DNA from: Microvirga sp. Mcv34
GTDB lineage: Bacteria > Pseudomonadota > Alphaproteobacteria > Rhizobiales > Beijerinckiaceae
Direction of reading: 5' to 3'
Assembly (NCBI RefSeq): GCF_024519725.1
Contig: NZ_JALJRK010000001.1
Span: forward strand, 62,001 to 126,000
DNA length: 64,000 bases
Below, piece after piece: positions 23,246-54,359 of the stretch. The notes beneath the pieces are model-generated. The model saw nothing but the letters and a program-made list of their open reading frames with translations. It was not told where the DNA came from and did not search any database. A program made the translations under genes and the position numbers. The first letter of the stretch is position 1. Every line of letters starts with the position of its first letter.

Positions 23246-23430
23246 TCCGTAAATTGGGTATCCTTGAGTGTCTCGCGGCATCGTTCAAAGGCACAAGATA
23301 TTGATAAATAAGTATTGCATGGTCCTTCTACATCACTTCAACTCCCTTGATGTCATGTCTGTTTGGTGACATGTTGGTGACACGGCACAGTTTCTGTGCC
23401 TCCCGGAATCTTCGTGTCACCAGGGTAGCC

Positions 23431-30993: not shown

Positions 30994-31371
30994 GAGTTTA
31001 CGGATCCGTAGGGGCAAATAAAACAGATCCGATGGATGCACCTGCTCACATAAAGCTCTTCCTGTCTTGGTTATCAGCTCTTTGCAGAGTGCGGCATTTT
31101 CGCAGCAATGGCCGACAATAGGGATTTGTACTTATTGCAGACCTCGCACACGATCGATATGCAGGCGTCACCGTAGGGGCAAATACGGGCTCAAGGGTCG
31201 CGAACACGGTTACAAGATCGGGCGCGGCCCTTTTTCATGGACGCTCTGGCTCAATCTCATTGGTGCGCGAATACCGCGCGGCTCATCGCCTTTATGGAAT
31301 AGCGCTGGCGGTGGGTTCGGGTCGGGTGTAGACAAAGGGATCGCCGGTATAAACGCCCCAGGCGCCGACGA

Positions 31372-31402
31372 CTGAGAGATGCGCGCGCTCCCGCCTGTAA
31401 GG
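31372..31402 (+). promoter_or_regulatory. Conserved leader motif, copy A
   Basis: CTGAGAGATGCGCGCGCTCC, continuing CGCCTGTAAGG, lies 14 bp before the alpha-CTD-like gene at 31417. Close copies precede the genes at 37056 and 38670 at nearly the same distance. It could be a core promoter or a 5' leader. Confidence 0.6.
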
Positions 31403-31416: not shown

Positions 31417-31665
31417 ATGCCTCGTCATTCTCAAACCTGCACCGGCCCCATTGCGGATCTTTATTTACCTCAGCTTGCCTGGGACGTGTTCCATCGAGAG
31501 AACATCCAGACGATCGCTCAGCTCAGGGCAGTTGCTGGCCAGCTCGAGCGGCTCGAAGGTTTCGGACCCACAACGGTGCGCGTCATCAGACAAGAACTCG
31601 ACCGCGTAGCGGCACCTGGAGAGCAATTGTTTCATGACGGACAGCTTTCTGCGTGGGGCGCGTAA
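31417..31665 (+). CDS. Small protein resembling the RNA polymerase alpha C-terminal domain, copy 1
   Basis: An 82-aa protein, start ATG 31417 (MPRHSQTCTGPIADLYLPQL). The segment LYLPQLAWDVFHRENIQTIA, then QLRAVAGQLERLEGFGPTTV, matches the layout of the alpha-CTD helix-hairpin-helix (L.L..RA.NCL..E.I..I.DL, then N.GKKSL). In this hand alignment the DNA-contact residues R265 and N268 of E. coli alpha are Leu and Asp, so UP-element binding may be lost. It has a close paralogue at 38670-38918, and both follow the same leader motif. Confidence 0.7.
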   Translation: MPRHSQTCTGPIADLYLPQLAWDVFHRENIQTIAQLRAVAGQLERLEGFGPTTVRVIRQELDRVAAPGEQLFHDGQLSAWGA

Positions 31666-31891: not shown

Positions 31892-31974
31892 TGCTCTCCC
31901 AGGCGCTGATTGCATTCCTCCTGATGGCCGGCATTGTCGCCATCTACACACTGACGATCCGCTACCACGTGTGA
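31891..31974 (+). CDS. Tiny membrane peptide 2 (27 aa)
   Basis: MLSQALIAFLLMAGIVAIYT plus LTIRYHV: one transmembrane helix with a short basic tail. It starts in the TAATG overlap with the preceding tiny gene. It resembles small subunits such as KdpF or CydX only in size and shape, so no function is assigned. Confidence 0.55.
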   Translation: MLSQALIAFLLMAGIVAIYTLTIRYHV

Positions 31975-32114
31975 GAGAACACCAATCTGGGCAACGGGCC
32001 GGCGCAGCCTGTCCGCTGGGCGTCAAACCCACCACTGCCGGCGATGCTAACAACCCAAAGGGTTTATGGGCACCGCGTGCGTCTGGGCAGCCTCATGAAG
32101 GGCGGTGTTCGAAG

Positions 32115-33116
32115 ATGAACAAACGCGCCTCAGTCATGCAACGCCGCCTCGCAGCCATCTTCTACGCTGACGTGGCCGGCTATGTGCGCCTCATGAATGC
32201 CGATGAGGCTGGAACGTTGTGTCTGCTCGACTCCCATCGGGCCATCATGGATCGCCAGATCATCCAGTACAGAGGCCGCACGGCCAACACCGCAGGCGAC
32301 AGCATCCTGGCTGAGTTTCCAAGCGTCATAGAGGCGGTTCAATGCGCGCTCGGCGTTCAGGAGAGGATTGCCGCGGCGAGTGAGGAAACGCCCGAGGAGC
32401 GGCGGGTCACCTTCCGGATCGGGGTGCATGTCGGAGAGGTCATGGTTCGAGACGGCGACATGTTCGGGGATGGAGTGAACATTGCAGCCCGCATGGAGAA
32501 ACTGGCGCTGCCAGGATTCGTCTGCCTGTCGGAAGCCGCTCACGCCTACGTGGCCAGGGTGTTGCCGCTGACCTTCGACGACCTGGGGGCACAGCCCGTG
32601 AAAAGTCTCGACACCCCCGTACGGGCCTATATCGTCCACGGCTCCGATCATCCACCATTCCAATTCCTGCCTCCGGTTCATCGCCGCAGCGAGTTCAACC
32701 TGGGGCGACGCTTTCACGCGATCCTGAACCGTGCGCTGCTGGAGGTTACGCGGCCGGAGGGCCTGACGCTGGTCGAGCCTGCGGTTTTGGCCTCCCTTCA
32801 CGATGCCCCTGACATCGACGAGCGGCGGCTGGCCGAGCGGATCGGCGCTGACCTTGCAAGCACCCAGCGGATGGTCCGGCACCTTGAGCGCCGCGGCTTC
32901 GTCAGCAGGACACGGGGGAAACGCGGCAGCGAGACGCGGTTACTGAGCCTCACCCCGGCGGGGCTCGATCTTTTCGAACGACTCCACCCAGCCATCCTTG
33001 CGGTGCGGGATCAGGTCATGGCGTCGCTTTCGGAGCGCGAGCGGGAGACCCTGCAAGATCTCCTGGCCCGCGTGATCAACGCCAACGAACTCAAGGCGAG
33101 CCGTCGCTTCAACTGA
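32115..33116 (+). CDS. Class III nucleotide cyclase fused to a MarR-like winged helix
   Basis: A 333-aa protein. Residues about 8-180 form a class III adenylate/guanylate cyclase domain. The metal-binding aspartates are in FYADVAGYVRL and AGDSILAEF, and the transition-state Asn/Arg pair is in GDGVNIAARME. Residues about 200-330 form a MarR-type winged helix (HAILNRALLEV, then ERIGADLASTQRMVRHLERR and GFVSRTRGKRGSETRLLSLT). The direct fusion of a cyclase to a MarR domain is unusual. ATG 32115 is chosen; an open frame extends upstream to 31971 through the tiny-peptide region. The island's Crp-like regulators suggest a nucleotide-signalling theme. Confidence 0.85.
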   Translation: MNKRASVMQRRLAAIFYADVAGYVRLMNADEAGTLCLLDSHRAIMDRQIIQYRGRTANTAGDSILAEFPSVIEAVQCALGVQERIAAASEETPEERRVTFRIGVHVGEVMVRDGDMFGDGVNIAARMEKLALPGFVCLSEAAHAYVARVLPLTFDDLGAQPVKSLDTPVRAYIVHGSDHPPFQFLPPVHRRSEFNLGRRFHAILNRALLEVTRPEGLTLVEPAVLASLHDAPDIDERRLAERIGADLASTQRMVRHLERRGFVSRTRGKRGSETRLLSLTPAGLDLFERLHPAILAVRDQVMASLSERERETLQDLLARVINANELKASRRFN

Positions 33117-36495: not shown

Positions 36496-36935
36496 GCGGT
36501 TGGCCGTCGGTCTTGTCATGGCTGCTTGAGACAAGATGTACTTTGCTTTCTACAGGTCAACAAGGCTGCGTCGGAAGGCCCCGAGCAGAACTCATTTCTC
36601 ACCGGTAATTAATGAGTCCTCTCCCTAACCAAGCTCCATGAGCACTGAATGGGGAATGCGGGAATCGCGTTGCCGGTTCTCAGAGCCGCAGATGCCTCCC
36701 GCCGCCGCGATTGCTCTGCACATCGGCCATTCAACTCGGATCGGCCAAGGTCTGCTCAGGGTCAAACTGAGCCGCCGGGTGCTCATGAGCAATCGACCGA
36801 AATTGGCGCCCGACATCACCTGCATAGACCCGTATTGGGGTCAGACCAACCTCGGTTCCTGTGGGGAGGCCCCGTCGAAAGGCTCCCTCGCTGATAAGCG
36901 GTCTATGAAACGACGGTACCCAGGCCAACAAAGAT

Positions 36936-36953
36936 TTGTACGATTTCGAACAA
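36936..36953. promoter_or_regulatory. Palindromic operator TTGTACG-N4-CGAACAA (site 1)
   Basis: One arm mismatch from the perfect TTGTACG-N4-CGTACAA palindrome found elsewhere in the island. It lies 103 bp before the DUF6894 gene at 37056. Confidence 0.6.
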
Positions 36954-37010
36954 TTCTCCTCCTGAGCCGTTGAGTTCTACCATCGACATGGATGACCTGG
37001 GCGTCGGTGA

Positions 37011-37040
37011 CTGAGAGATCCGTGTGCTCCCGCCTACAGG
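37011..37040 (+). promoter_or_regulatory. Conserved leader motif, copy C
   Basis: CTGAGAGATCCGTGTGCTCC, continuing CGCCTACAGG, 15 bp before the GTG at 37056. It is the least similar of the three copies (31372, 38626). Confidence 0.55.
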
Positions 37041-37055
37041 GACAAGGAGCGCCTA

Positions 37056-37313
37056 GTGCCCCGCTATTTTTTCCACGTCATCGACGGGCGTAACATCATC
37101 GACAATGACGGGACGGTGCTTCCCGGCCTGACAGAAGCCCGCGCCGAGGCAATCCGGACGGCCGGTTCCATCCTGCGCGATGAGGGCGACCAGTTCTGGA
37201 ACGGCACCGAGTGGCAGATGAACGTCACCGATGCATCAGGACAGTCTGTGCTCAAGCTCCGCTTCTCGGCCGACGATCAAGGCATTGCGCCTGACGAAAA
37301 TTGGAAGTTCTGA
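37056..37313 (+). CDS. DUF6894 family small protein
   Basis: An 85-aa protein with GTG start (MPRYFFHVIDGRNIIDNDGT). The AAGGAG site 8 nt upstream sets the start. It carries the LPGLTEARAEAIRTAGSILR helix and a terminal VTDASGQSVLKLRFS strand. It is preceded by the leader motif shared with the alpha-CTD-like genes, suggesting common control. Confidence 0.8.
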   Translation: MPRYFFHVIDGRNIIDNDGTVLPGLTEARAEAIRTAGSILRDEGDQFWNGTEWQMNVTDASGQSVLKLRFSADDQGIAPDENWKF

Positions 37314-37422
37314 ACTGACGTTTAGCTCGTTCTCGGCAGACCGACAGAGCTCTTTCGGGCCCTAACCACTCTGAGATCGTCTTCCTCGAGCCGCGTTATC
37401 TGGATGAAGTGGTAGCGTCGCT

Positions 37423-38136
37423 ATGGCCAAGCCTCCCAACGCCAGTCATCGTACGAACTGGCTTCTCGCCGCTCTGGAGCCCGAGGATGTTGCGCTCCTT
37501 GAGCCCCACCTTGAAACGGTCCATCTGACACAGGGCCAAGTGCTCTATGACACAGGCGGCACTATCAGCCACGCCTACTTCCCCGACGACGCCATCGTGT
37601 CGCTCGTGAATGTCATGGAGGATGGCGGCACGGTTGAGGTGGGAGTGTTTGGGTGCGAGGGCCTGCTGAGCGCACTGGTCACTCGCGAGGCCTTCGGACG
37701 CTATGTCGTGCAGTTGGCGGGTGCGGCCTCGCGGATCTCATGCGAGCGTCTGGACGAGATGAGGAACGCTCGCCCCAACCTGCGACACCTGCTCATGCGT
37801 TACGGCGAGGTTCTGCTCGCCCAGGCCCTTCAGAACGTCTCCTGCAACGCGGTTCATCCGGTTGAATCCCGTTGCTGCCGTTGGATCCTCAGCATGCGCG
37901 ACCGGGCGGATCAGGATACCTTGCCGCTCACGCATGAGTTTCTGGCTGAAATGCTGGCGGTGCAGCGCTCCAGCGTGAGCATGGTGACCCGCACGCTTCA
38001 GACGGCGGGGCTGATCCGGCAGTCCAGAGGCAGCATCACGGTGCTCAACCGGGCTGGCCTCGAAAAGACAGCCTGCGAATGCTACGGCAAGGTCCGACTG
38101 ATCTATCAGCGCCTGCTCCCAGACGGGGCGCGATAG
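37423..38136 (+). CDS. Crp/Fnr-like regulator, island copy 1
   Basis: A 237-aa protein: cNMP-like barrel (DTGGTISHAYFPDDAIVSLV, residues about 40-60) and winged helix (LPLTHEFLAEMLAVQRSSVS). The CCRWILSMRDRA motif is shared with the chromosomal regulator at 16687-17412. The cAMP cassette residues are not conserved and no Fnr cysteine cluster is visible, so the signal is unknown. The nearest regulatory site is the operator and leader region upstream of 37056. Confidence 0.88.
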   Translation: MAKPPNASHRTNWLLAALEPEDVALLEPHLETVHLTQGQVLYDTGGTISHAYFPDDAIVSLVNVMEDGGTVEVGVFGCEGLLSALVTREAFGRYVVQLAGAASRISCERLDEMRNARPNLRHLLMRYGEVLLAQALQNVSCNAVHPVESRCCRWILSMRDRADQDTLPLTHEFLAEMLAVQRSSVSMVTRTLQTAGLIRQSRGSITVLNRAGLEKTACECYGKVRLIYQRLLPDGAR

Positions 38137-38266
38137 CAAAGTAACTGTGGCTGTCCCGAGTTTCTTGCAAGAGAGCCTCTGGCACGGGACATTGACTGTC
38201 TGATTTCGTATAGCAACAATGAAATCGGTTCGGAGTTGATGGATCGTCCAAAGGAGGCATTTGGCG

Positions 38267-38539
38267 ATGCCCCGGTACTTTCTGCACCTGAAGCACGCTG
38301 ATCAGTCTGTGATTGAAGACTGGGAGGGTTCGGAATTGGCCAGCCTCGAGGCGGCCCAGGAGGAGGCCATGCGGGGCATTCGGTGTCTGGTGGCCAACGC
38401 GATCAAGTTCGGTCGTGACATCGCCGTAGAGGCCATCGTGGTCACGGATCACCAGGGCCGCCACCTGCATTCAGTGTCTGTGAAAGAGGCGCTCCCAGAG
38501 CGCGTCTTATATCCGCTAAGCGACGCGGATTTCGCCTAA
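38267..38539 (+). CDS. DUF6894 family small protein
   Basis: A 90-aa protein (MPRYFLHLKHADQSVIEDWE, then ELASLEAAQEEAMRGIRCLV) with a VVTDHQGRHLHSVSVKEAL end. The start at 38267 follows AAGGAGG. A degenerate copy of the palindromic operator (CTGTCTG-ATTT-CGTATAG, 38196-38213) lies upstream. Confidence 0.78.
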   Translation: MPRYFLHLKHADQSVIEDWEGSELASLEAAQEEAMRGIRCLVANAIKFGRDIAVEAIVVTDHQGRHLHSVSVKEALPERVLYPLSDADFA

Positions 38540-38625
38540 GGTCCCTTGATGGGATAGTGCTGGCCGTGGGTTTAGGGTGGGCGTACAATCAGCCATCGCC
38601 GGCATGAGAGACCAGGCACCGACGG

Positions 38626-38656
38626 CTGAGAGATGCGTGCGCTCCCGCCTGTAAGG
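38626..38656 (+). promoter_or_regulatory. Conserved leader motif, copy B
   Basis: CTGAGAGATGCGTGCGCTCC, continuing CGCCTGTAAGG, 13 bp before the ATG at 38670. It differs from copy A at one base in the core. Confidence 0.6.
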
Positions 38657-38669
38657 CTAGGATCAGCAC

Positions 38670-38918
38670 ATGCCCCGTCATTTCGAACCCTACGCAGGAC
38701 CCATCGAGGGTCTTTATTTGCCCCAGCTTGCCTGGGACGTGTTCCTTCGAGAGAACATCCAGACAATCACTCAGCTCAGGGCTGTCGCCAGTCAGCTTGA
38801 GCAGTTCGAAGGCTTCGGCCCTATAACAGTGCGCGTCATCCGACAAGAGCTCGACCGTGTAGCGGCATCGGGAGAGCAAACATTGGACGACGGACAGCTT
38901 TCTGGGTGGGGTGCGTAA
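38670..38918 (+). CDS. Small protein resembling the RNA polymerase alpha C-terminal domain, copy 2
   Basis: An 82-aa paralogue of the 31417-31665 protein (LYLPQLAWDVFLRENIQTIT, then FEGFGPITVRVIRQELDRVA). Most differences are conservative and the C-terminal DGQLSGWGA is kept. Conservation of both the protein and the leader suggests the pair is functional and co-regulated. Confidence 0.72.
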   Translation: MPRHFEPYAGPIEGLYLPQLAWDVFLRENIQTITQLRAVASQLEQFEGFGPITVRVIRQELDRVAASGEQTLDDGQLSGWGA

Positions 38919-39056
38919 GGCTGAGACGACTGTTGCGGAAATCCGGACCGAGCAGAGGGGGCGAAGCTGCCTGACGCCTCTGGCCAGGCGCTAACGCCCT
39001 TTCGGGCCTTCCAGTCGAGCTTACCGATTATCAGGCAATGGAGGGGCTTCGAGCGG

Positions 39057-39299
39057 CTACTTGACCGCCTCTGAGAATGGCAGCGTCAGCACAACCGCGC
39101 CAACCTCGTCCGTCACCTCAAACGAGCATCGGAGCCAGTCGGGAATCGCTTTCAGGCGCGCACTCCTCATCAGGTCACGGGCGGTGTCCACGACGTGCTG
39201 CCGCAGGTCGTCGGGATCGGTGAGTTCATCGCCCTCATCGTCCCGAGCAAAGCCATCCTCGGATGCCGGATACCGGAGGTGGAGGAAGTAACGCGGCAT
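39057..39299 (-). CDS. DUF6894 family small protein
   Basis: An 80-aa protein (MPRYFLHLRYPASEDGFARD, then LRQHVVDTARDLMRSARLKA and VTDEVGAVVLTLPFSEAVK). It starts 1 bp after the stop of the minus-strand Crp/Fnr gene 39301-40011, so the two form an operon. Confidence 0.75.
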   Translation of the reverse strand: MPRYFLHLRYPASEDGFARDDEGDELTDPDDLRQHVVDTARDLMRSARLKAIPDWLRCSFEVTDEVGAVVLTLPFSEAVK

Positions 39300-39300
39300 C

Positions 39301-40011
39301 TCACGCCTCCGTCTTCATCAGGCGCGAGTACTCCGTTTCCGAGAGACCATAGGCTTCATCGGCCAGTTCCTCCAGCTTCTCCCGGTCAAGCACGGTGATC
39401 AATCCCCGTTTCGCCCTGATAACCCGCATGCCTTCGAGCACATGGAGCGCCACCGTCACGCCGGGTCGGCGCACGCCGAGCATCATGGCAATGAACTCAT
39501 GGGTGAGCGGGATGTCATCGCCGTCGACCCGGTCGTGGCACATCAGAAGCCAACGGGCCAGCCGGGCTTCGATGTCACTGTTGGCGTTGGCAAAGGCCGT
39601 CTCGGAGGCCTGAACATGGGACGCCTGCACATAGCGCAGAAGATGGCGGTGCAGAGACCGGCTCTGAGCCATAGCCTGCTCCAAATCATGCGCTGCGATG
39701 CGCCAGCCGTGCCCCGGGATCTGCATGAAGTGCTCGTAAGGCGTCTGGTCGATCCCGAGCACAATCGGCAAGCCGATCATGCCCTCCTGCCCGATCACCC
39801 CGACCTCGATCTTGCCGCCGGAGCTGTTGTTGGTCACCGACGACATGCCCTGCTCGGGGAAGTAGGCGTGTTCGATGGGCATATTGGGCTCGATCAGAAC
39901 CTGTCGCAGGGCGAGTGACACTGGCTCCAGATGAGGCTGGAGGCGCGCGAGGTCGTCTGCGGAAAGGGAGGCGAGAAGCCGGTTGCCGATGGGAACCTGC
40001 TGAAGCTGCAT
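39301..40011 (-). CDS. Crp/Fnr-like regulator, island copy 2
   Basis: A 236-aa protein of the ARWLLMCHDR type: barrel segment IEHAYFPEQGMSSVTNNSSG, HTH segment IPLTHEFIAMMLGVRRPGVT. It lacks the canonical cAMP-binding cassette. It is one of three close paralogues (with 41844-42560 and 43810-44580). A perfect operator palindrome lies at 40160-40177, 149 bp upstream of its start. Confidence 0.88.
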   Translation of the reverse strand: MQLQQVPIGNRLLASLSADDLARLQPHLEPVSLALRQVLIEPNMPIEHAYFPEQGMSSVTNNSSGGKIEVGVIGQEGMIGLPIVLGIDQTPYEHFMQIPGHGWRIAAHDLEQAMAQSRSLHRHLLRYVQASHVQASETAFANANSDIEARLARWLLMCHDRVDGDDIPLTHEFIAMMLGVRRPGVTVALHVLEGMRVIRAKRGLITVLDREKLEELADEAYGLSETEYSRLMKTEA

Positions 40012-40159
40012 GGTGTCCTCCCATGTTGGGGCGGGAGAACACGTTCCTCTCAGTCGCTTGCGCCCTGGTTAAACCATGCAAGCGATGGAAGCACTCTACT
40101 CCTTCGGGACGGTGAAGGACAGGCCTTTCGCGTTGAGAACGCCGCGTCCCGGAGCTGCA

Positions 40160-40177
40160 TTGTACGATTTCGTACAA
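40160..40177. promoter_or_regulatory. Perfect palindromic operator TTGTACG-ATTT-CGTACAA (site 2)
   Basis: Both 7-bp arms are perfect. It sits between the minus-strand Crp/Fnr gene (start 40011) and the possible plus-strand gene at 40249, so it could control either. Confidence 0.7.
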
Positions 40178-40248
40178 TTACCCATTCTGCGGCTGCTGGT
40201 GGGGAGACGCCGCTCGACGTGCGCTGCCATGCACGGGGAGACATCGTC

Positions 40249-40560
40249 ATGACGACCATGTTCAGCTATCAACCTGTCCCGTTTGCTAAGGGAACGCCCG
40301 ACCGGGAGAGGCTTCTGCTGTTTTGGGGTGCCGATCTCCTGGCTGGGCTCGTTCGCCCTTCGCCCGAAACGCATGACGACCAGGGAGGCGTCTGGTTCTC
40401 AAAGCCGAGTTCGCCGCCTGTGCGGACAGGAGGCCCCCTGTTGCCGCGGAGCCCCGGTTCGCTGAGAAAATATCCAAAGCGCTTGGCCGGACCCGCGCAG
40501 ACCGAGGATCTGAGGCCGCTGGAATATACGCGGACACTCCCCCATAAGACGTTTGACTGA
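40249..40560 (+). CDS. Possible hypothetical protein
   Basis: A 103-aa frame (MTTMFSYQPVPFAKGTPDRE), basic and proline-rich with no domain. GGGGAG lies upstream of the ATG. It may be real, since a perfect operator precedes it, but the composition is not convincing. Confidence 0.35.
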   Translation: MTTMFSYQPVPFAKGTPDRERLLLFWGADLLAGLVRPSPETHDDQGGVWFSKPSSPPVRTGGPLLPRSPGSLRKYPKRLAGPAQTEDLRPLEYTRTLPHKTFD

Positions 40561-40617
40561 GACCGTCTTGGGACTTGGCAGGTGATGGATCGGCCCATCA
40601 ACGCTCGCGGAACCGGA

Positions 40618-41004
40618 TTATGGCGCGGAGGCGACCATCTCCCTCAGGTGGCCCAGAACCAAGCTCTCCTCATAAGGCTTCGCGACGAAGCGGCCGCCCT
40701 CCGGGAGTTCCGCCGCGCTCGGCCGGATCCCGCCTGAGACAACCAGGACAAGGACCTCAGGCCAACGCTGGTGGGCGCAACTGATCAGATCAAGCCCGTT
40801 CAGGGACCCTGGCATCTGGATGTCGGTGAAGATCACCCGCACGTCGTCTCGCACTTCGAGCCAGGTCAAGGCCTCTTCGGCATTGCCGGTTTCAATCACC
40901 TCAAAGCCGGCTTCCTCCAGCACGTCGGACACGAAGAAGCGCAGTAGCGGCTCATCCTCCACCAGGAGAATGACAGGACGGCCATTGGGGCGCTGATTGC
41001 TCAT
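40618..41004 (-). CDS. Single-domain response regulator (receiver only)
   Basis: A 128-aa CheY-like receiver. The acidic pair is in ILLVEDEPLLR, the phosphorylated Asp is in VIFTDIQMPGSLNG (about residue 60), and the conserved Lys is in VAKPYEES. No output domain. ATG 41004 (MSNQRPNGRPVILLVEDE) fits receiver proteins, although the palindromic operator directly abuts this start. The frame is also open for 34 codons upstream. No histidine kinase is adjacent. Confidence 0.85.
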   Translation of the reverse strand: MSNQRPNGRPVILLVEDEPLLRFFVSDVLEEAGFEVIETGNAEEALTWLEVRDDVRVIFTDIQMPGSLNGLDLISCAHQRWPEVLVLVVSGGIRPSAAELPEGGRFVAKPYEESLVLGHLREMVASAP

Positions 41005-41021
41005 TGTACGGGAACGTACAA
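41004..41021. promoter_or_regulatory. Perfect palindromic operator TTGTACG-GGAA-CGTACAA (site 3), abutting the response regulator start
   Basis: The palindrome begins at the first base of the response regulator start codon and covers the 17 bp upstream, where a ribosome-binding site would be expected. A protein bound here, or a hairpin in the RNA, could block expression. AGGAG occurs only about 22 nt upstream. Confidence 0.7.
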
Positions 41022-41067
41022 TTTCGCTCCTGGTTGCAGCGCCTCCTCTAAAGAGTAAACAGACATT

Positions 41068-41085
41068 TTGTACGGAACCGTACAA
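41068..41085. promoter_or_regulatory. Perfect palindromic operator TTGTACG-GAAC-CGTACAA (site 4)
   Basis: Second perfect site 64 bp from site 3 (start to start). The pair brackets the likely promoter of the response regulator gene. Confidence 0.7.
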
Positions 41086-41309
41086 ATCACCAGCCGTTGA
41101 CGACAAAAGCCGGCGCCACCCGATGCCCCGGAACAGCCAGGGGCACGCTGATGACCGAGCAGGACATCCTCAGCAGGCCGGAGATGGTGTGAAGCCCAAT
41201 GGCTCCCTTACCAGAGCCTAACGCCAGTCCGGCTCAACAGAGCACCAATCCCGTGCAGCGCCGGTTGCAGCCAGACGCGGAGCTGTAGGCGTCGCCTGTT
41301 TCCAAGCCC

Positions 41310-41690
41310 ATGCGGTCGCTGGTCGACGACTGGCCCATGGCCGTTCAGCCGACACCCCCGCAATCTGTGAGCTACCGAAGACGGCTGGAACGAGATCTGA
41401 AGGCAGGGAGCGACCCGATGCGACGAAGCTTGGCGAGTGTCATTGCGACAGATAAAGAAGATGACCATCTTCTGGGTGAGTTGCAGCATACCTTGGCCGA
41501 ACTGGCCGACGTGGAGCTGCGTCATAAGGTCGAACGCGAGAAGATCCAGGCTTGGCCTGGGTCCTTGGCGGATCAGGAGCGCCGGTTCGCCGAGTGCGAC
41601 CGGCGGTGCCGGTTGGCCCGTGAGCCCTTCCACCACCACTTGGCCAAGCTTCAGCGGCAGATCCTGTTACAGGCATCGCTAGGGCGTTGA
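41310..41690 (+). CDS. Hypothetical helical protein
   Basis: A 126-aa protein rich in charged helices (ELQHTLAELADVELRHKVER, later LAKLQRQILLQASLGR). The start is uncertain: ATG 41310, 41337 or 41418 are all possible, and no strong ribosome-binding site decides it. No domain. Confidence 0.45.
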   Translation: MRSLVDDWPMAVQPTPPQSVSYRRRLERDLKAGSDPMRRSLASVIATDKEDDHLLGELQHTLAELADVELRHKVEREKIQAWPGSLADQERRFAECDRRCRLAREPFHHHLAKLQRQILLQASLGR

Positions 41691-41843
41691 TCCCGGGCGG
41701 ATTCTGCCTCTTGCCGCTGGCCCCTCATGAACATCTTTTCCATCTGACTTGAAGGACGCTGTTCCCTGCGCCACCTTCGCTGTGGTCAGGGTTCAACACT
41801 GGCGTAGCCGGCTCGGCTGCGCTTTCCGATTTACTGCGGTTCT

Positions 41844-42560
41844 ATGTCTAAGTTCTCCCAATGCTCTGTTCGCAATCGGCTCCTGGCAGCTCTTCCGGCT
41901 GACGATTTCGCCCGGATCCGGAACCATCTTGATCCCGTCACCCTGAACCGGAGCGACGTGATCGTTGAGGCCAATGCACCCATTGAGCATGTCTACTTCC
42001 TCGAGGCCGGTGTGACCTCCATTGTCACCCGCACGGTTCGCGGGCGTCGGATTGAGATCGGACTGGTCGGACGGGACGGCTTCGCCGGGGTGCCGGTCCT
42101 CCTGGGCGCCGACCGGACGCCGCATGAGACCTTCATGCAGGTGGGCGGCTCGGCCCTGCGCATGCGGGCTGAGGCCTTCCATCAGGCCTTGGAGCAGAGC
42201 CCTGCTCTACAGAAGCTTCTGTTGCGCTTCGTCCAGGTATTCCACCTTCAGACGGCTCAGACCGCCGCCTGCAACGGGTCTCAGAAGGTAAGCCGGCGAT
42301 TGGCCCGTTGGCTGCTGATGTGCCACGACCGGCTGGACGGGGATGAACTGCCCCTGACGCATGAGTTCATTGCCGTCATGCTCGCCGTGCGCCGGCCCGG
42401 GGTGACAGAGGCCCTTCAGGAGCTCGAGACAGCGGACATCATCCGGACCGAGCGCCGCAACATTGTCGTGCTCGATCGGCGCAAGCTCGAAGAGACCGCC
42501 GGAGATGCGTATGGCGTTCCGGAAGCCGAGTACGAACGTCTGATCGGCCCATTCCGCTAG
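41844..42560 (+). CDS. Crp/Fnr-like regulator, island copy 3
   Basis: A 238-aa protein (MSKFSQCSVRNRLLAALPAD). The barrel contains IEHVYFLEAGVTSIVTRTVR, and the winged helix has LPLTHEFIAVMLAVRRPGVT. It is a close paralogue of the copies at 39301 and 43810, including ARWLLMCHDR and the end VPEAEYERLIGPF. Its 3' end overlaps the end of a minus-strand pseudogene by a few bases. Confidence 0.88.
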   Translation: MSKFSQCSVRNRLLAALPADDFARIRNHLDPVTLNRSDVIVEANAPIEHVYFLEAGVTSIVTRTVRGRRIEIGLVGRDGFAGVPVLLGADRTPHETFMQVGGSALRMRAEAFHQALEQSPALQKLLLRFVQVFHLQTAQTAACNGSQKVSRRLARWLLMCHDRLDGDELPLTHEFIAVMLAVRRPGVTEALQELETADIIRTERRNIVVLDRRKLEETAGDAYGVPEAEYERLIGPFR

Positions 42561-42840
42561 CGCTCACGAGGGTGCGTAAGGCCGATGTCGGATTTGCCGT
42601 GGGTCTGCTGTCTCACCCAAGCAGCGACCTCCTCATGGCTCAGGAACAGCAGCCCTGTGTCCTGGCGGTAGCCGAACCCTGCTTCAGGTGCCAGCGGCCT
42701 CTCTGCCCTTGATCATGGATTGCACCGTCAACCCGGGACAACACGGCCACGAGCTGCCTATCGAACAGGACCAGCAGTTCCTGCGTGCCATGGCCGTCGA
42801 TCAGGATCGGAAGAATTTGAAAAGAAATGCTTTGGGTCAC
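42557..42840 (-). pseudogene. Frameshifted small gene (hypothetical protein)
   Basis: From GTG 42840 the minus strand reads VTQSISFQILPILIDGHGTQ, then LLVLFDRQLVAVLSRVDGAI, up to RWHL. A one-base shift near 42685-42686 continues as GFGYRQDTGLLFLSHEEVAA up to a TAG at 42557. Together they form one coherent protein of about 93 aa, so a single-base deletion probably broke it. The function of the intact form is unknown. Confidence 0.6.
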
Positions 42841-43035
42841 AACGCCCTCGTTGGTTGGGGCGTGAGCGCATGGTCCAGCGGCGGACACCCTAAGAGGAGC
42901 TGCCTTTGTACGGTATCGGACGGTTCTCACTTTGGCAGCGTAGCGGCCTCAACGTTTAGCCGGATCAGGATTACAGATAGAGGTGAGTCCGGATCGAATG
43001 TACAGTTCCGACCTGATGCTCTTGGACTGTGCCCC
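42841..43035. other. Regulatory intergenic region
   Basis: About 195 bp before the next Crp/Fnr gene. It holds a degenerate operator at 42906-42923 (TTGTACG-GTAT-CGGACGG) and a weaker match near 43000. Confidence 0.45.
42906..42923. promoter_or_regulatory. Degenerate operator TTGTACG-GTAT-CGGACGG (site 5)
   Basis: The left arm is perfect and the right arm has three mismatches. It lies 112 bp upstream of the Crp/Fnr gene at 43036. Confidence 0.45.
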
Positions 43036-43776
43036 ATGAACCTTGCTTACGAACCGCACCCTCTGATCCGCAGGCTGGAGAGCATCACCGATCTATCCCA
43101 GTCGGAAAAGGACGCTCTTCTCCATCTGCCCTTGATGCTCCGCGAGTTTGCTGCCGATCAGGTGATTGTGCGCGAGGGTGATCACCCGTCCGAGTCCTGC
43201 CTCGTCATCAGCGGCATGGCATTTCGCTTCAAGATGACCGAAGACGGCAAGCGACAGATCATGTCCTTCCATATCGCCGGCGAGATCCCGGACCTCCAGA
43301 GCCTTCATCTGCGAACGATGGACCATGGACTGAGTACGCTTACTCCCTGCAAGCTTGCCTTCATTTCCCATCGGAGCCTACGTAGTCTGTTCCAGCAGCA
43401 CCCGCGCCTCTCCGAGGTGTTCTGGCGCGAAACGCTGATCGACGCGGCGATCTTCCGCGAATGGGTGGTCAATGTCGGGCGACGTCCGGCGCCGGCCCGA
43501 ATGGCGCATCTACTATGCGAGCTCTTCCTGCGCCACAAAGCTGTTGGGCTGGTGACGGACCACGCATTCGAGTTTCCAATCACCCAGAGCGAAATGGCCG
43601 ACGCCCTGGGGCTCTCGAACGTCCATGTGAACCGCACGCTGCAAGAGCTGCGGGCACGAGGGCTGATTGGCGAGCAGGGGCACCTCTTGAAAATCCTGGA
43701 CTGGGAGGGGCTCAAGCAAGCGGGCGAGTTCGATCCTACCTACCTGCACCAGGAACCCGGCGATGAAGCCGCCTAA
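43036..43776 (+). CDS. Crp/Fnr-family regulator, island copy 4 (divergent subtype)
   Basis: A 246-aa protein from ATG 43036 (MNLAYEPHPLIRRLESITDL). The barrel holds VREGDHPSESCLVISGMAFR, and the winged helix is FPITQSEMADALGLSNVHVN, closer to FixK/Crp-type helices than the other copies. The frame is open upstream to 42688, but the family start is 43036. No ligand residues can be assigned with confidence. Confidence 0.88.
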   Translation: MNLAYEPHPLIRRLESITDLSQSEKDALLHLPLMLREFAADQVIVREGDHPSESCLVISGMAFRFKMTEDGKRQIMSFHIAGEIPDLQSLHLRTMDHGLSTLTPCKLAFISHRSLRSLFQQHPRLSEVFWRETLIDAAIFREWVVNVGRRPAPARMAHLLCELFLRHKAVGLVTDHAFEFPITQSEMADALGLSNVHVNRTLQELRARGLIGEQGHLLKILDWEGLKQAGEFDPTYLHQEPGDEAA

Positions 43777-43809
43777 GGCTCGCCTGCCCTTACTTGGTCA
43801 TGGAGGCGG

Positions 43810-44580
43810 TCACTCAATCTCGCGTGGATCTCGCCTGGAATGGCTGCCACCTGACACTTCAGGATTCGGGATGAGACGCTCATACTCTGCTTCCGGCACG
43901 CCGTAGCTGTCGCCAGCCGTCTCCTCCAACCGCTCGCGGTCAAGGATGGTGATGTGAGAGCGCCGCGCCCTGATCATGCCGGTCCCTTCCAGCAGATGGA
44001 TCGCTTCGGTGACGCCAGGGCGGCGGACCGCCAGCATGAGGGACAGAAACTCATGCGTGAGCGCCAACTCGTTGCCGTCGACACGGTCGTGGCACATGAG
44101 AAGCCAGCGGGCGAGCCGCTCGCTCAAGACGCTGTCGCCGTTCGACATTGCGGTGGCGGCGGTCTGCACCGTCACCACATAGATGTAGCGCAAGAGTAGA
44201 TCATGCAGGGTCCGGCTCGCCTCCAGAGCCCGGATCAAGTGCGGGGTGGCAATGCGGTAGCCTCCTCCCTCCATCTGGAAGAAGCTCTGGTGAGGCGTGC
44301 GGTCAACGCCCAGGACAATGGACGGGCCAACGAGCCCTTCCCAGCCGACAATGGCGATCTCAACCGGACGGTGGTCTGAGTTGAGAGCCACCACCGAGGC
44401 TACCCCGCTCTCGGCAAAGTAGACGTACTCGATGGGCTGGTTGGGCTCGATCAGGACCTTGCCCTTGGGCAGCGCAACTGGTTCCAGGTACGGCCCGACC
44501 AGCGCAAAGTCCTCTGGGGCCAAGGCCCGGAGCAGTTGATTGCGCAGGGAGGACTGATCGGGTTGAACCACGGCTGCCAC
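43810..44580 (-). CDS. Crp/Fnr-like regulator, island copy 5
   Basis: About 256 aa, using GTG 44580; GTG 44571 or TTG 44640 are alternatives. The family-like part begins SSLRNQLLRALAPEDFAL. The barrel has IEYVYFAESGVASVVALNSD and the HTH LALTHEFLSLMLAVRRPGVT. It is the third member of the ARWLLMCHDR paralogue group and has a short charged extension at the C-terminus. A degenerate operator lies upstream (44708-44725). Confidence 0.86.
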   Translation of the reverse strand: MAAVVQPDQSSLRNQLLRALAPEDFALVGPYLEPVALPKGKVLIEPNQPIEYVYFAESGVASVVALNSDHRPVEIAIVGWEGLVGPSIVLGVDRTPHQSFFQMEGGGYRIATPHLIRALEASRTLHDLLLRYIYVVTVQTAATAMSNGDSVLSERLARWLLMCHDRVDGNELALTHEFLSLMLAVRRPGVTEAIHLLEGTGMIRARRSHITILDRERLEETAGDSYGVPEAEYERLIPNPEVSGGSHSRRDPREIE

Positions 44581-44707
44581 ACAGGAACGGGGCGGAAGGT
44601 CATTGGTCCCTCGGCTGCTATTGCCCCACTGATCGGTCAAGCAGTTGAGAATGCCCTAAGCGGGGATAGGGAGTGCAGTCACGCGAATAAGCGCCTCTGG
44701 CGCCGCT

Positions 44708-44725
44708 CTGTACGGTTTCATACGA
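44708..44725. promoter_or_regulatory. Degenerate operator CTGTACG-GTTT-CATACGA (site 6)
   Basis: Three mismatches to TTGTACG-N4-CGTACAA in total. It lies 128 bp upstream of the GTG 44580 start of the minus-strand Crp/Fnr gene. Confidence 0.4.
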
Positions 44726-45262: not shown

Positions 45263-45985
45263 CTATGCCACCTCTCCGTCAATCGTTGGCGGCTGCGAGG
45301 GCGGCTGCGGCGATGGCGTCGAGACACCGGCCATGCCCCCAAGGCCTGCGCTGTTGGCGAGCTGGGCGATCTTTGAGCCCATCTGAGCCAGGGAATCGGT
45401 CAGCTCACGACGGCGGCGCAGTTCGGCCTCGTCGACCCTGTTGCCTTCGGCTTGCGTCCTGTAGTCGAAGCCATGGGCGCGGCGCTCACCTTCCTGGGCC
45501 GTCATCATCGAGCGGGCATCGGCCTCGAAGATCGCCATCAGCTTGTGCGCCAGCGTGATGCGCTTGGTCAGGGACAGCGCCTCGGCCTTCTCGATCATGT
45601 CGCCGTTCTCGTCCAGGACGTCCCGATTGGAGACGAACCGCATCGGCTCGCCGCGCAGCATGCGGAAGGCGTCCTGGCGCAGCTCGTAGATGTCGCTCCA
45701 CTGCCCCTGATGCTGCAGGATCAGGGTTGCCCGGTCGCATGCGACATGCACGACTCTCGCGTTTTCGGTTGCAGTGCGAGGATCGCCCTCGGCCTTCCCG
45801 CGCCTGACGACAGTCAGCGCCTCGCGGATGATCGGATTTTTGACCCATCCATAACGCCTGGCGGCATTGTCGATAGCCTTGCGGGAAACATTGTATTTCA
45901 GGGACAGTGAAGAGACGGAAGAGCCCGCAGACCATTCCTCGCCGAGCTTCTGCCATTGCTCCGCTGTGAATTTCGCCTTTGCCAT
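45263..45985 (-). CDS. Terminase-small-subunit-like DNA-binding protein
   Basis: A 240-aa protein. The N-terminal HTH (MAKAKFTAEQWQKLGEEWSA, SSVSSLSLKYNVSRKAIDNA) resembles those of phage terminase small subunits. The centre is helical (ELRQDAFRMLRGEPMRFVSN) and the tail is Pro/Ser-rich. No large terminase or other phage structural gene is nearby, so it is an isolated remnant or has another DNA-binding role. Confidence 0.6.
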   Translation of the reverse strand: MAKAKFTAEQWQKLGEEWSAGSSVSSLSLKYNVSRKAIDNAARRYGWVKNPIIREALTVVRRGKAEGDPRTATENARVVHVACDRATLILQHQGQWSDIYELRQDAFRMLRGEPMRFVSNRDVLDENGDMIEKAEALSLTKRITLAHKLMAIFEADARSMMTAQEGERRAHGFDYRTQAEGNRVDEAELRRRRELTDSLAQMGSKIAQLANSAGLGGMAGVSTPSPQPPSQPPTIDGEVA

Positions 45986-46124
45986 TGCGTATACCGCTCA
46001 GTCTTTGCGATCGACATTCCCAGGTCGCAGGTGCGCATATCTACTGCGACGTGCGACTGGAGCGGAAGAGACAAATTCTGCCATGGGGCGCATTATTAAC
46101 TTGAGGATCAAATGGCAGCGAGGG

Positions 46125-46149
46125 ATTCGAACTCCCGATACGGTTGCTC
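46125..46149. repeat. Left tRNA-like direct repeat flanking the restriction-modification operon
   Basis: ATTCGAACTCCCGATACGG, then TTGCTC, matches 54052-54076 at 23 of 25 positions. On the minus strand it contains a tRNA T-arm-like GTTCGAAT. It lies 37 bp before the hsdR 3' end. Confidence 0.65.
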
Positions 46150-46185: not shown

Positions 46186-49149
46186 TCAATAATACTCACG
46201 AATGTAACCGTACGCTTTTTCGAACAGGTCCGCATCCTGATGCATCTTATAGCGGAAAAGCGTATGGCGCAGCGCCTTCTTGACCTCGCGCTCGCCGGCA
46301 TGCGTGGTCTGCCAGCCATCAAACCTCACCGCGCGCACGATCTCGTCGATGTCGTCCACCACCCGCTTCACCATCACAGGCGTATCGCCGTTCCGAGCCT
46401 CCTCGAAAAGTGCAGTCAACGCCGCTTTGCCGCGGTCGATGTCTTCTTCCTCTGGTGTTTCGCGTTCGGTCTTCACCACGTCCTTTGCCAGTGCCAGAAG
46501 CTCTTTCAGGAAGTCGATTGATAGCAGCAAGCCCTGCTGATGCCGGTTCTTCAGGTCCTCTAAGCGCTCGCCTAATGCTTTGAACTTCGGATTTCCCGCG
46601 TGTTTCCGCAGGCGGCCCGCCAGCTTGACGGAGATTTCCTTGGCCTTCTTTTCCGGGTCTGGGTTGACGAGGACTGCTTCGAGCAGATCGGCATCAAGCA
46701 CCAACGTGTCGAGGTCGTCACGGACTGCGTCGACATGGACGTTCTCGTGGATCAGTTCGATGGTCTTGGCGCCCAGCCGGTGCCAAAGCAGCCGACCTGT
46801 GCCGCTGGAGGGTTTCAAGGACTCATAGACCTGCGCCAGCCAGCGATAATCGGTCTCGTACTGCGTCAACACCGGATCAGGCGACAGCGCCTCCCAGATC
46901 CGGGCCAGCACGCTGAAATCGGCCGCGAAGGCGTCGCGTAGGTCGTTGTTCGGAATGCACTCCTGCGCGGCGATCAGCCCTTCGTACCCGGTCAAGCTGC
47001 GGTCCACGCCCGCGAAATAGGCGAGGCACTTCTGCAAAGCGGTCGGGAGGGCGTTGATCAGCTCGGCAATGTTCGACACCGCCTTCTGCACGCCCTCCTC
47101 ATCGAACTTCAGCGCCTGCGCGACATCGTCGAAGATGCCGAGGTAGTCAACGATCAAACCATGCGTCTTCTGTTCGCCATAGGGGCGGTTCGTCCGGCAG
47201 ATGGCCTGCAGCAGCGTGTGGTCGCGCAGCGGCTTGTCGAGGTACATTGTCTGCAGGATCGGCGCGTCGAAGCCAGTCAACAGCTTGGACGTGACGATGA
47301 TGATCTTCAACGGGTCCTTGGGATCGCGGAAGCGGTCGAGGAGCTTTTCCTCAGCATCCCGGTCGCGCTTGTAGGGCGCGTACTCCGGCTCGCCGCTGTT
47401 TACCGAGATCACAATATCCGATACTTCGGGAGGCAGGTGCCGATCGAACTCTTGCTTATAAAGCAGGCAGCTCTCGCGGTCGAAGGTCACCACCTGCGCG
47501 CCGAAGCCGTTCGGGGCAACCTTCTCTTGGAAATGCTTGGCGATGTCGCTGCAGATGGCGCGGACGCGCGCGGGTGCCTTAACAAGGATCGACATCTTGG
47601 CCGCGGCTTTGCCCAGCCGATCCTTGTCCTCGTCGGTCAGGCCCTGCGTCAGTTCGGCATACGCTTCCGCGATGGCCTTCTGGTCAATGTGCAGGTCCAC
47701 CAGACGCGGCTCGAAATGCAGTTCTTTTGTAGCGCCGTCGCGGATCGAGTCGTTCAGGCCGTAGCGGCTCATGTAGCCGCCCTCGTCCGTGTCGGCGCCG
47801 AAGGCGTAGAAGGTGTTCTTGTCGGCACGGTTGATCGGTGTGCCGGTCAGGCCGAACAGGAACGCGTTCGGCAGCGCCTCCCGCATCTTGCGGCCCAGAT
47901 CGCCTTCCTGCGTGCGGTGCGCTTCGTCCACCAGCACGATGATGTTGTCGCGGTCGTTCAGCACCCCGTCGGCCTCGGCGAACTTGTGAATCGTGGTGAT
48001 CACCACCTTGCGCGCGTCCTTGCCCAGGAGGTCAGCCAGTTCCTTGCGGCTTTCCGTGCGCACCATGTTGGGCATGTCGGCGGCGTAGAAGGTGCCGGAG
48101 ATCTGGCTGTCGAGGTCGATCCGGTCGACCACGATCAGCACCGTGGGGTTCTTCAGCGCCGGGTGCAGCCGCAGCTTGCGCGCGGCGAACAGCATCAGAA
48201 GGGACTTGCCCGACCCCTGGAAATGCCAGATCAGCCCCTTGCGCGGCTGGCCCGCCACCACGCGCGCCACGATCTTATTGACGCCGTCCACCTGCTGATA
48301 GCGGGCAATGATTTTGATGCGATGCTTGCCTTTCTGCGTCGCGAAGGCCGTGAAGCTGCCGAGCAGGTCGACCACCATCGCCGGTCGCAGCATCGAGGCG
48401 GCCGCCTTTTCCACCGCACCGAGCCCCTGCGGCCCGTCGCCATCGCGCCAGGGGCCCCACATGTCGACTGGCATCCGGACCGAGCCGTAGCGAAACTCTT
48501 TGCCCTCGGTGGCCACTGAAAAGACGTTGGGAACGAACAGCTCTGGCACATTCCTCTCATAGTCGTCGTGCACCTGCAGCGCGGCGTCAAGCCAACTCTG
48601 ACTGGACCGTACCGGCGTCTTAGCCTCGATCAGGACCAGCGGAATGCCGTTGACCAGCAGAACCAGATCGGCCCGCTTCTCGGTTTTCCCGGCTCGAATT
48701 GTGAACTGCTGGGTGACGGCGAAGCTGTTCTTCTCGATACCCTCGAAGTCGATTAGGCGGATGGTGACGTGTTCACCGTTCGCCCCGAAGGGCATGGAGC
48801 GTTCGCCCAGCAGCCACGCCGCAAATTCCTCGTTCGCCTTCACAAGCCCGTCCGACCGCGCACCCATGACGATGGCGCGCAGGCGGTAGAGGACGTCATC
48901 GGCCCAGCCGGGGCTCGCGGCGATCTCGGGGTTCAGGCGGATCAGGGCGTCGCGCAGATAGGGTTCGACCAGCACCTCCTGCGGCTGGCGGGGAAGGTCG
49001 GCAGGGGCGACAAAGTGCCAGCCGAGGCCAGCGATCTTGCCTCCCATGCGGGCGAAACCTGGCGAGAGGTGCGACGGGCGGGTCGAGGCGGGGCCAGCGA
49101 GAAGGTCGCGCAGATGGGCTTCGACAGTATTGGACTCGTTGAATTTCAT
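46186..49149 (-). CDS. hsdR: HsdR, type I restriction endonuclease subunit R
   Basis: A 987-aa motor and nuclease subunit. The N-terminal PD-(D/E)XK nuclease has RADLVLLVNGIPLVLIEAKT. The SF2 helicase core has Walker A WHFQGSGKSLLMLF, DEAH box VLVDEAHRTQEGD, FLFGLTGTPI and VTSKLLTGFDAPILQ. A helical C-terminal domain binds the methylase core. ATG 49149 overlaps the hsdS stop as ATGA; a GTG at 49158 is an alternative. All motifs look intact, so the enzyme is probably active. Confidence 0.95.
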   Translation of the reverse strand: MKFNESNTVEAHLRDLLAGPASTRPSHLSPGFARMGGKIAGLGWHFVAPADLPRQPQEVLVEPYLRDALIRLNPEIAASPGWADDVLYRLRAIVMGARSDGLVKANEEFAAWLLGERSMPFGANGEHVTIRLIDFEGIEKNSFAVTQQFTIRAGKTEKRADLVLLVNGIPLVLIEAKTPVRSSQSWLDAALQVHDDYERNVPELFVPNVFSVATEGKEFRYGSVRMPVDMWGPWRDGDGPQGLGAVEKAAASMLRPAMVVDLLGSFTAFATQKGKHRIKIIARYQQVDGVNKIVARVVAGQPRKGLIWHFQGSGKSLLMLFAARKLRLHPALKNPTVLIVVDRIDLDSQISGTFYAADMPNMVRTESRKELADLLGKDARKVVITTIHKFAEADGVLNDRDNIIVLVDEAHRTQEGDLGRKMREALPNAFLFGLTGTPINRADKNTFYAFGADTDEGGYMSRYGLNDSIRDGATKELHFEPRLVDLHIDQKAIAEAYAELTQGLTDEDKDRLGKAAAKMSILVKAPARVRAICSDIAKHFQEKVAPNGFGAQVVTFDRESCLLYKQEFDRHLPPEVSDIVISVNSGEPEYAPYKRDRDAEEKLLDRFRDPKDPLKIIIVTSKLLTGFDAPILQTMYLDKPLRDHTLLQAICRTNRPYGEQKTHGLIVDYLGIFDDVAQALKFDEEGVQKAVSNIAELINALPTALQKCLAYFAGVDRSLTGYEGLIAAQECIPNNDLRDAFAADFSVLARIWEALSPDPVLTQYETDYRWLAQVYESLKPSSGTGRLLWHRLGAKTIELIHENVHVDAVRDDLDTLVLDADLLEAVLVNPDPEKKAKEISVKLAGRLRKHAGNPKFKALGERLEDLKNRHQQGLLLSIDFLKELLALAKDVVKTERETPEEEDIDRGKAALTALFEEARNGDTPVMVKRVVDDIDEIVRAVRFDGWQTTHAGEREVKKALRHTLFRYKMHQDADLFEKAYGYIREYY

Positions 49150-50312
49150 TTCCAGCACGCCCCCAACACCTTGTCAGAAATCTTCCGATAGACGTCTTGG
49201 AAGCTATCGCGCCGTCTTTCTGCTAAGATGCGCTGGCTTTCGAGCGCGGCTATCTCGGCAACAATTTCCTTTTGTTCGTCGATGCACGGAACCCAGATCG
49301 GGAAATCAGATACCAGCTTCGTGTTCAATGCCTGTTGGTTTGTGCCGTGGCTCCAGTGGCGAAGCGGCTCGTAGCAGGACTCGAGCTGATAAAAGAGGAA
49401 CTCCGGAACAACGGATTCACCCGGTGAGACCGCGGCAAAATTCTGGTTGATCGTCGCGTCAATCCTCAGCAGTGCTACCTTTCCTCGCGTCGTTCCTTCG
49501 CCGATCATCGCCACAAGGATCGAGCCAGCCGGGATCATTCGTAGAGAGGATTTTCGCAAGGCGAGGTCAGTTATGCACTCATCGGCGGATTCAATGTAAC
49601 GTTCATTAACCTTTCCCGTCGGCAGCCACGGGACATTGCCTTTCCAGAAGTCCGGGTTCTTACGACTGGGCGTCGTTCCATTTCGGACTGTTGCAACCTC
49701 GCCAATGCGCGTTCTTGCGCTCTCTTCCCGCTGTTCAATGAACAGACTCTTGCAAAGCGAACGCATTGCCATCGCCGCAGAATCAGCGACACTCCTGAGG
49801 CCATCCTGAACCTCATTCGCCGCCACAAGCGCCTCCAACAGGCGCGCCTGCTCCTGAATGGGCGGTAGGAGGAACTTGAAGCTGGCAAGGCTGGTCCAGT
49901 TGGTGCGCGGCGACAGCGACCCTGCCGAGGTGCCGACAGCATGATCAAAGAAGGCGTCTGTCTGGCATAGGAACGGCAGTAACTCAGGGATTAGCCGGTC
50001 ATTCGCGGGCTCCAGCACATAAATGTCCCCTGAACAGACCCCTTCGAAATCCGCCACCGCCACCTTGCGCTGATAGGCGCGGCGCTTGCCGAACAAAACC
50101 TGCCCCTGCTTGAACAGAGTCGTGAAAGTCGTGCCATCGGCCACATCACCCCAGCGGCGGATGCGCAGATCGCCCGGCTCGATATGCTCCAGCCCGACAA
50201 CACGTTCGATGCCGGCTGCCTCCGGGTCGGCCACGCGCGCTTTCGACAGGCGCACCACGTCGCCAAACGCCACACGCGACCACCCCGCCCTGGATATCGG
50301 TCGTTCAAGCAT
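49146..50312 (-). CDS. hsdS: HsdS, type I specificity subunit
   Basis: A 388-aa protein with two target-recognition domains, each followed by a conserved helix (LPPIQEQARLLEALVAANEV and PCIDEQKEIVAEIAALESQR). It determines the bipartite recognition sequence and scaffolds the M and R subunits. It overlaps hsdM by 8 bp. The recognition sequence cannot be read from the protein. Confidence 0.93.
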   Translation of the reverse strand: MLERPISRAGWSRVAFGDVVRLSKARVADPEAAGIERVVGLEHIEPGDLRIRRWGDVADGTTFTTLFKQGQVLFGKRRAYQRKVAVADFEGVCSGDIYVLEPANDRLIPELLPFLCQTDAFFDHAVGTSAGSLSPRTNWTSLASFKFLLPPIQEQARLLEALVAANEVQDGLRSVADSAAMAMRSLCKSLFIEQREESARTRIGEVATVRNGTTPSRKNPDFWKGNVPWLPTGKVNERYIESADECITDLALRKSSLRMIPAGSILVAMIGEGTTRGKVALLRIDATINQNFAAVSPGESVVPEFLFYQLESCYEPLRHWSHGTNQQALNTKLVSDFPIWVPCIDEQKEIVAEIAALESQRILAERRRDSFQDVYRKISDKVLGACWK

Positions 50313-54315: not shown

Positions 54316-54359
54316 TGGCTGGGGGACCTGGATTCGAACCAAGACTAACGGAGTCAGAG
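54316..54359 (-). mobile_element. Middle attachment site: second copy of the tRNA-Gln(CTG) 3' end
   Basis: Identical over 44 bp to 23202-23245, again without the tRNA 5' half. It forms the right boundary of the first element and the left boundary of the prophage. Confidence 0.85.

Follow-up and report, generated by a model that had tools for sequence, protein, structure and literature searches.

The locus described here raises the question of why five genes for Crp/Fnr-like regulators should be crowded together on a mobile element, and whether they constitute a circuit that travels with it. It lies in a 64,000-nucleotide stretch of the Microvirga sp. Mcv34 genome (contig NZ_JALJRK010000001.1, positions 62,001–126,000), referred to in the following as the window. 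A preliminary description had reported five such regulators within about 7 kb, and all five were found, each matching PF13545 above the cut-off: A (37423–38136, + strand), B (39301–40011, −), C (41844–42560, +), the FixK/FNR-like D (43036–43776, +, with an open frame that extends back to 42688) and E (43810–44580 or 43810–44640, −; the start codon is uncertain and the frame stays open as far as a TTG at 44640). B, C and E have the motifs ARWLLMCHDR and VRRPGVT in common, as had been described, and are assigned to what we call the ARWLL clade. The new features reported here are a palindrome, TGTACG-N4-CGTACA, that is nearly confined to the cluster, a leader element at start codons, a linkage between DUF6894 and Crp genes, and an element flanked by tRNA-Gln sequences. 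Judging from these sequence comparisons, there is roughly an even chance that the cluster is a self-contained, mobile regulatory cassette that controls itself.

The genome (6.18 Mb, 333 contigs) has 25 PF13545 matches above the cut-off, 24 of them with E ≤ 1e-8; a 7.2-kb stretch would be expected to hold about 0.03 by chance, and five were observed. Twelve Microvirga genomes (our own and 11 relatives, chosen by us and not at random) were found to contain 4–30 PF13545 genes each, with a maximum of three per 8 kb in the relatives. When the window was compared with a stretch of the Microvirga terrae plasmid pR24_1 and 80 related loci, 82 sequences in all, it was the densest case, with five Crp/Fnr genes inside 7.3 kb; five other loci had four. 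The objection that similar clusters with known roles might be widespread holds by half: loci with at least two Crp/Fnr genes are common (55 of the 80), but we found no known role for this Crp/Fnr group, in a literature search that was weak for the spelling 'Crp/Fnr' and from which no absence in print is claimed.

The palindrome is a candidate operator for the cluster. Exact copies are located at 40161–40176, 150–165 bp upstream of B, and at 41005–41020 and 41069–41084 in front of a gene for a receiver-only response regulator (40618–41106, −), which likely starts at an ATG at 41004 or further downstream. The first of these two sites is directly upstream of that ATG, and the second is 64 bp away, a spacing also seen in M. 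terrae. Imperfect copies are found upstream of a DUF6894 gene at 37056 (36937–36952, one mismatch), upstream of D (42907–42922, two mismatches) and upstream of E (44709–44724, two mismatches), the last being identical in M. terrae and M. soli. The exact sequence occurs three times in the entire genome, always in the cluster, and with up to one mismatch it occurs five times, four of them in the 8-kb cluster and one on contig C260.

Across 48 Microvirga genomes, there were only seven exact sites, in four genomes: the three in our own, two at corresponding places in M. terrae, one upstream of B in M. pakistanensis, and one in a fourth genome (G020), inside an open reading frame (ORF) that by eye reads as an acyl-CoA dehydrogenase. 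Orthologs of B with at least 85% identity were present in the first three of these genomes and in none of the others, where the best match reached 57%. The exact palindrome was thus found in 3/3 genomes with a close B ortholog and in 1/45 without (probability 2e-4). In alignments of the regions upstream of B, the response regulator and DUF6894, the arms were retained between species while the spacers had changed. The 1.51 Mb of fetched loci contained 35 palindromes with up to one mismatch, compared to seven for a reversed control; ARWLL-clade genes had 19 of these in their upstream regions (control, 0), and a D-clade gene had one. A count of perfect dyads upstream of 122 ARWLL-clade genes gave GTACG-N4-CGTAC in nine and TGTAC-N6-GTACA in eight (shuffled maximum 3).

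Several genes of the element also share a 26-base leader, GACTGAGAGNNNCGYGYNCTCCCGCC (GACTGAGAG...CTCCCGCC). It precedes B (40030–40055, −), the DUF6894 gene at 37056 (37009–37034, +) and two genes for small proteins resembling the RNA polymerase alpha C-terminal domain (alpha-CTD), at 31417 (31370–31395, +) and 38670 (38624–38649, +, one mismatch). These four copies compare with 0.03 expected in the window; the genome has six, against two for the reversed pattern. The remaining two precede a D-clade Crp gene (contig C310) and an ORF of 73 amino acids (contig C301), so that five of the six genomic copies stand before a Crp, DUF6894 or alpha-CTD-like gene. The CTCCC part of the leader is able to pair with the ribosome-binding site. 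A search of Rfam 15 gave no family at the gathering threshold for 22000–56000 and none at E ≤ 1 for 36800–40300. The fetched M. terrae stretch has an additional promoter copy with palindrome and leader (25670–25790 of that stretch), homologous to the DUF6894 promoter at 36932–37050 and with no recognized gene behind it.

DUF6894 proteins are the third recurring component. One is encoded directly downstream of B (39057–39299, −) with a single base between the genes, and the same pair is found in M. terrae and, with the genes overlapping, in M. pakistanensis. Two others flank A: that at 37056–37313 (+), upstream of A, carries both palindrome and leader, and that at 38261–38539 (+), downstream of A, has a palindrome with three mismatches at 38197. 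In the 12 Microvirga genomes, DUF6894 was found within 2 kb of a Crp helix-turn-helix (HTH) for 44 of 258 genes, compared to 3.4 expected under a uniform distribution. The linkage exceeds regional crowding, because the density of DUF6894–Crp pairs per kb drops from 28 (0–1 kb) and 19 (1–2 kb) to 4–9 (2–16 kb). Of the 80 related loci, 43 had a DUF6894 ORF no more than 1 kb from a Crp ORF, 14 of them directly downstream on the same strand, the overlapping M. pakistanensis case being outside this count. A sixth Crp/Fnr-like copy in the window (16687–17412, −; PF13545 above the cut-off), which lies outside the element, likewise has a DUF6894 gene beside it, the pair occupying 16198–17412. We found no paper that names DUF6894.

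That the cluster is on a mobile element, as the preliminary description proposed, is supported by direct repeats of 44 bp, each corresponding to the 3′ end of tRNA-Gln(CTG), at 23202–23245 and 54316–54359, and by a tyrosine integrase (23347–24576, +) just inside the left boundary. The repeats are 44/44 identical to each other and to part of an intact tRNA-Gln(CTG) at C111:159610–159683. The 31.1-kb element between them, which holds the Crp cluster, therefore has the features of a tRNA-targeted integrative element: flanking tRNA 3′-end repeats, an intact tRNA nearby, and an integrase at one end. Besides the integrase, it encodes a type I restriction system, a primase-like ATPase and a possible excisionase, the latter an HTH_17 protein. 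In this genome, RepC was located on two contigs, neither of which is C111. The stretch of about 43 kb from the right 44-bp repeat (54316) to the intact tRNA-Gln (C111:159610), which extends past the right end of the window, is a putative second element, with its own integrase at 54429–55514 (−). The arrangement points to a tandem pair of elements at a single tRNA gene, the first of which holds the Crp cluster.

The closest relative of the cluster is found on M. terrae pR24_1 (NZ_CP102846.1, approximately 19.4–26.3 kb), where the order DUF6894–B–response regulator–C–E is retained, at 86% protein identity for B, 84% for both C and E, 81 and 82% for DUF6894, and 72% for the response regulator, together with palindromes and leaders like those in the window. 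The Crp block itself is therefore not new to public records, pR24_1 holding B, C, E and a probable D, although its genes are annotated merely as Crp/Fnr family, response regulator and hypothetical proteins. Unlike the element described here, pR24_1 is a repAB plasmid, with the block a few kb from repA and repB; its D counterpart is more distant (62–64%) and lies at the other end of the block, and no A ortholog was found in the 45-kb M. terrae stretch. Other species have parts of the cluster: M. soli has E and a shortened D ORF (84.7% DNA identity over 1410 bp), and M. pakistanensis has B with DUF6894 and no other Crp gene in a 20-kb locus. The M. makkahensis locus (NZ_WURB01000008.1) resembles the window in that 11.5 kb hold seven Crp/Fnr ORFs, of which the first is short and one is accompanied by DUF6894, and in having a 67% C ortholog with a one-mismatch palindrome, but it consists of other members of the clades and has no close B, the best match there probably being 57%.

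In the reading that we favor, one of the ARWLL-clade regulators, in all likelihood B, would bind the palindrome as a dimer and regulate its own cluster by feedback. The shared leader, by covering the ribosome-binding site, could coordinate the translation of B, one DUF6894 gene and both alpha-CTD-like genes, and DUF6894 would be the partner of the regulator encoded beside it. The other Crp-like proteins (A and C, possibly also D and E) would act on different operators; the incoming element would plug into the network of the host.

Several observations weigh against this reading. The palindrome is not over-represented genome-wide (with up to one mismatch, five versus 16 for the reversed control; exact, three versus two), and any wide regulon would therefore run through some other site. 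Even with three mismatches allowed, the window shows no palindrome in the near upstream region of A or C; the M. pakistanensis site lies about 390 bp upstream of B, owing to an insertion of about 240 bp; and one of the two response regulator sites, touching the start codon, fits repression better than activation. Part of the promoter copies arose through duplication. TGTAC-N6-GTACA with up to one mismatch occurred upstream of 19/122 ARWLL-clade genes (shuffled mean 0.86, maximum 4) and 0/28 A-clade genes. The figure of 19/122 is partly circular, as these genes were among those whose upstream sequences had yielded the palindrome, a problem that does not affect the genome-wide counts. Similarly, the sequence-only leader model, which gave 34 matches in 73 fetched loci, 27 of them ending at a start codon (18 Crp, seven DUF6894 and two alpha-CTD-like) and seven with another or no such ORF, was built from, and applied to, loci that had been collected for their Crp genes, and only the genome-wide leader count is unbiased. 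The pairing within the leader showed no covariation (its own value of −12.3 compared with −12.0 when permuted, 1358/5000 permutations being as good), exceeding only that of shuffled arms (−9.1), and RNAalifold gave no stable consensus (−0.6 kcal/mol). A structured RNA with covariation is thus unsupported, and the leader is kept as a sequence element. Finally, the model of DUF6894 (predicted local distance difference test score, pLDDT, of 81) had no PDB match at E ≤ 0.001.

The identity of the protein that binds the palindrome bears on the feedback proposed for B. Another member (C, E or D) could bind the site instead, as could heterodimers or several members in competition; the cluster would then consist of cross-regulating paralogs. 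The recognition helices of B, C and E are alike, and the E site is identical in three species. Palindromes with up to one mismatch were found upstream of C orthologs in M. makkahensis, M. arabica and BSC39, all of which lack a close B, and upstream of ARWLL-clade genes in Methylobacterium, Beijerinckia and Rhizobiaceae. However, the exact sites follow the B ortholog in 3/3 genomes, and in one of these B is the sole Crp gene of the 20-kb locus; we consider cross-regulation in place of B feedback rather unlikely.

A tree of 118 of the 213 collected sequences, in which a long-branch warning concerned no sequence from the window, resolved the regulators into three subgroups (B, C and E; A and the sixth copy; and D), in agreement with the 'at least three' of the preliminary description. 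The claim that B, C and E are recent paralogs did not hold up: they are only 51–55% identical to one another, compared to 84–86% to their M. terrae orthologs, and in the tree they fall into separate ortholog groups, with A and D in other clades. Recent tandem duplication of the regulators is rejected on the tree and these identities. The cluster was thus put together from old lineages. The nearest relatives of A were in M. makkahensis and another Microvirga genome (G017). Upstream of genes of the A clade in the fetched loci, we noted another dyad, GTCTA-N4-TAGAC, in 4/28 cases (shuffled maximum 2), which is possibly a separate operator.

Alternatively, there may be no circuit, the locus being simply an accessory region that collected separately acquired regulators, each with a DUF6894 neighbor and a piece of promoter, and kept or lost independently. 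The five copies come from several clades and lie apart on the tree, D is elsewhere in the M. terrae block, A is absent there, and B occurs with DUF6894 alone in M. pakistanensis; moreover, Microvirga genomes hold up to 30 PF13545 genes in the 12 counted. Such accumulation does not fit well with nearly private palindromes and leaders that are common to different genes and conserved in position across species, nor with the gene order kept in M. terrae and the signs of purifying selection. Ratios of nonsynonymous to synonymous substitution rates (dN/dS) relative to the orthologs, calculated for B, C, D and E among the regulators, were 0.16 for B, 0.12 for C, 0.12 for E (0.15 relative to M. soli) and 0.27 for D, with 0.13 and 0.23 for DUF6894 and 0.24 for the response regulator. 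These values point to purifying selection on all of these genes, and the range of 0.12–0.27 makes it unlikely that B, C, D and E are silent. Mere accumulation is also regarded as unlikely.

All six copies were aligned with Escherichia coli CRP. The residues E72, R82 and S83 of the cyclic AMP (cAMP) pocket were kept in 0/6 copies. T127 was kept in C, E and the sixth copy, and S128 in B only; in A, the cAMP residues are absent. The preliminary description had four of the five regulators lacking the cAMP cassette; the loss of the pocket is real, but the count was wrong, as all five, and the sixth copy, lack E72, R82 and S83. Control by cAMP is rejected because these residues are kept in no copy; on this evidence, the signal for the cluster regulators is not cAMP. 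The PF00027 match was above the cut-off in C, D and the sixth copy, below it in B and E, and absent in A. In the recognition helix, R180 was kept in A, B, C, E and the sixth copy, and E181 was replaced by proline or serine, so an operator different from that of CRP is expected.

The element does encode the cyclase–MarR protein of the preliminary description, in which a class III nucleotide cyclase domain is joined to a MarR-type HTH (31971–33116). The idea that this protein makes a cyclic nucleotide ligand for the Crp-like proteins draws on its presence in the same element and on metal- and base-contact motifs that look present by eye, but is very improbable, as E72, R82 and S83 are kept in none of the six copies, the gene is 4.3 kb from A, and neither the M. 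terrae stretch nor any of the 80 related loci yielded a copy of it.

An AlphaFold2 model of B (pLDDT 93.4) had CRP, GlxR, FNR and NtcA as its top structure matches, with a Foldseek E value of about 5e-13 for E. coli CRP, which also shares the operator geometry of two half-sites; the differences from CRP are the pocket and recognition helix residues given above. The best NCBIfam and PDB sequence match of C was cyanobacterial NtcA, but against the NtcA model TIGR03697 (cut-off 244.95 bits) C scored 33 bits and B 20.3 bits. The palindrome contains GTA-N8-TAC, which we take to be the core of the NtcA operator. What are presumably the 2-oxoglutarate contacts of NtcA, R129 and E134, were not kept in the alignment, and only the position of R88 is an arginine in C and E. 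FNR, an Fe–S sensor, is characterized by an N-terminal cysteine cluster, which D lacks, its first cysteine being residue 55. D also scored 68.7 and 65.4 bits with the FixK and FnrL NCBIfam equivalog models, short of the cut-off of 300. B, C, DUF6894 and the alpha-CTD-like protein had no match in PHROGs.

Returning to the autoregulated cassette, the 'transferable regulatory circuit' of the preliminary description is supported in its main part by the tRNA-Gln flanks, the synteny with the M. terrae plasmid block, and the shared, nearly private palindrome and leader; the recent duplication and the cAMP link to the cyclase–MarR protein are not retained. The two alpha-CTD-like genes mentioned there were located at 31417–31665 (+) and 38670–38918 (+), with 82% identical DNA, but their PF03118 matches are only sub-threshold (E of 0.043 and 0.17, respectively). 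Beyond the Crp cluster, the type I restriction system (46186–53663) comprises HsdR, HsdS and two HsdM-type genes in a row. It is flanked by a 24-bp direct repeat with one mismatch (46124–46147 and 54051–54074) that resembles a tRNA T-arm, and it is perhaps a nested cassette. The protein encoded at 45263–45985 weakly matches the small subunit of a phage terminase (PHROG 1206, E 1.2e-5).

We tentatively put forward the wider proposal that this is a multi-regulator cassette of the Methylobacteriaceae with a private operator and a leader-based translational regulon of Crp-like, DUF6894 and alpha-CTD-like genes, that DUF6894 is a new partner family of cAMP-blind Crp/Fnr regulators, and that this wiring is passed on as a whole between plasmids and tRNA sites; we regard this as possible but less likely than not. 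The cluster supplies a candidate operator specific enough for a direct test, a conserved leader, and DUF6894 as a linked protein family. If the proposal is true, whole regulatory circuits, beyond single regulators, would travel with an element, and DUF6894 would gain a testable function.

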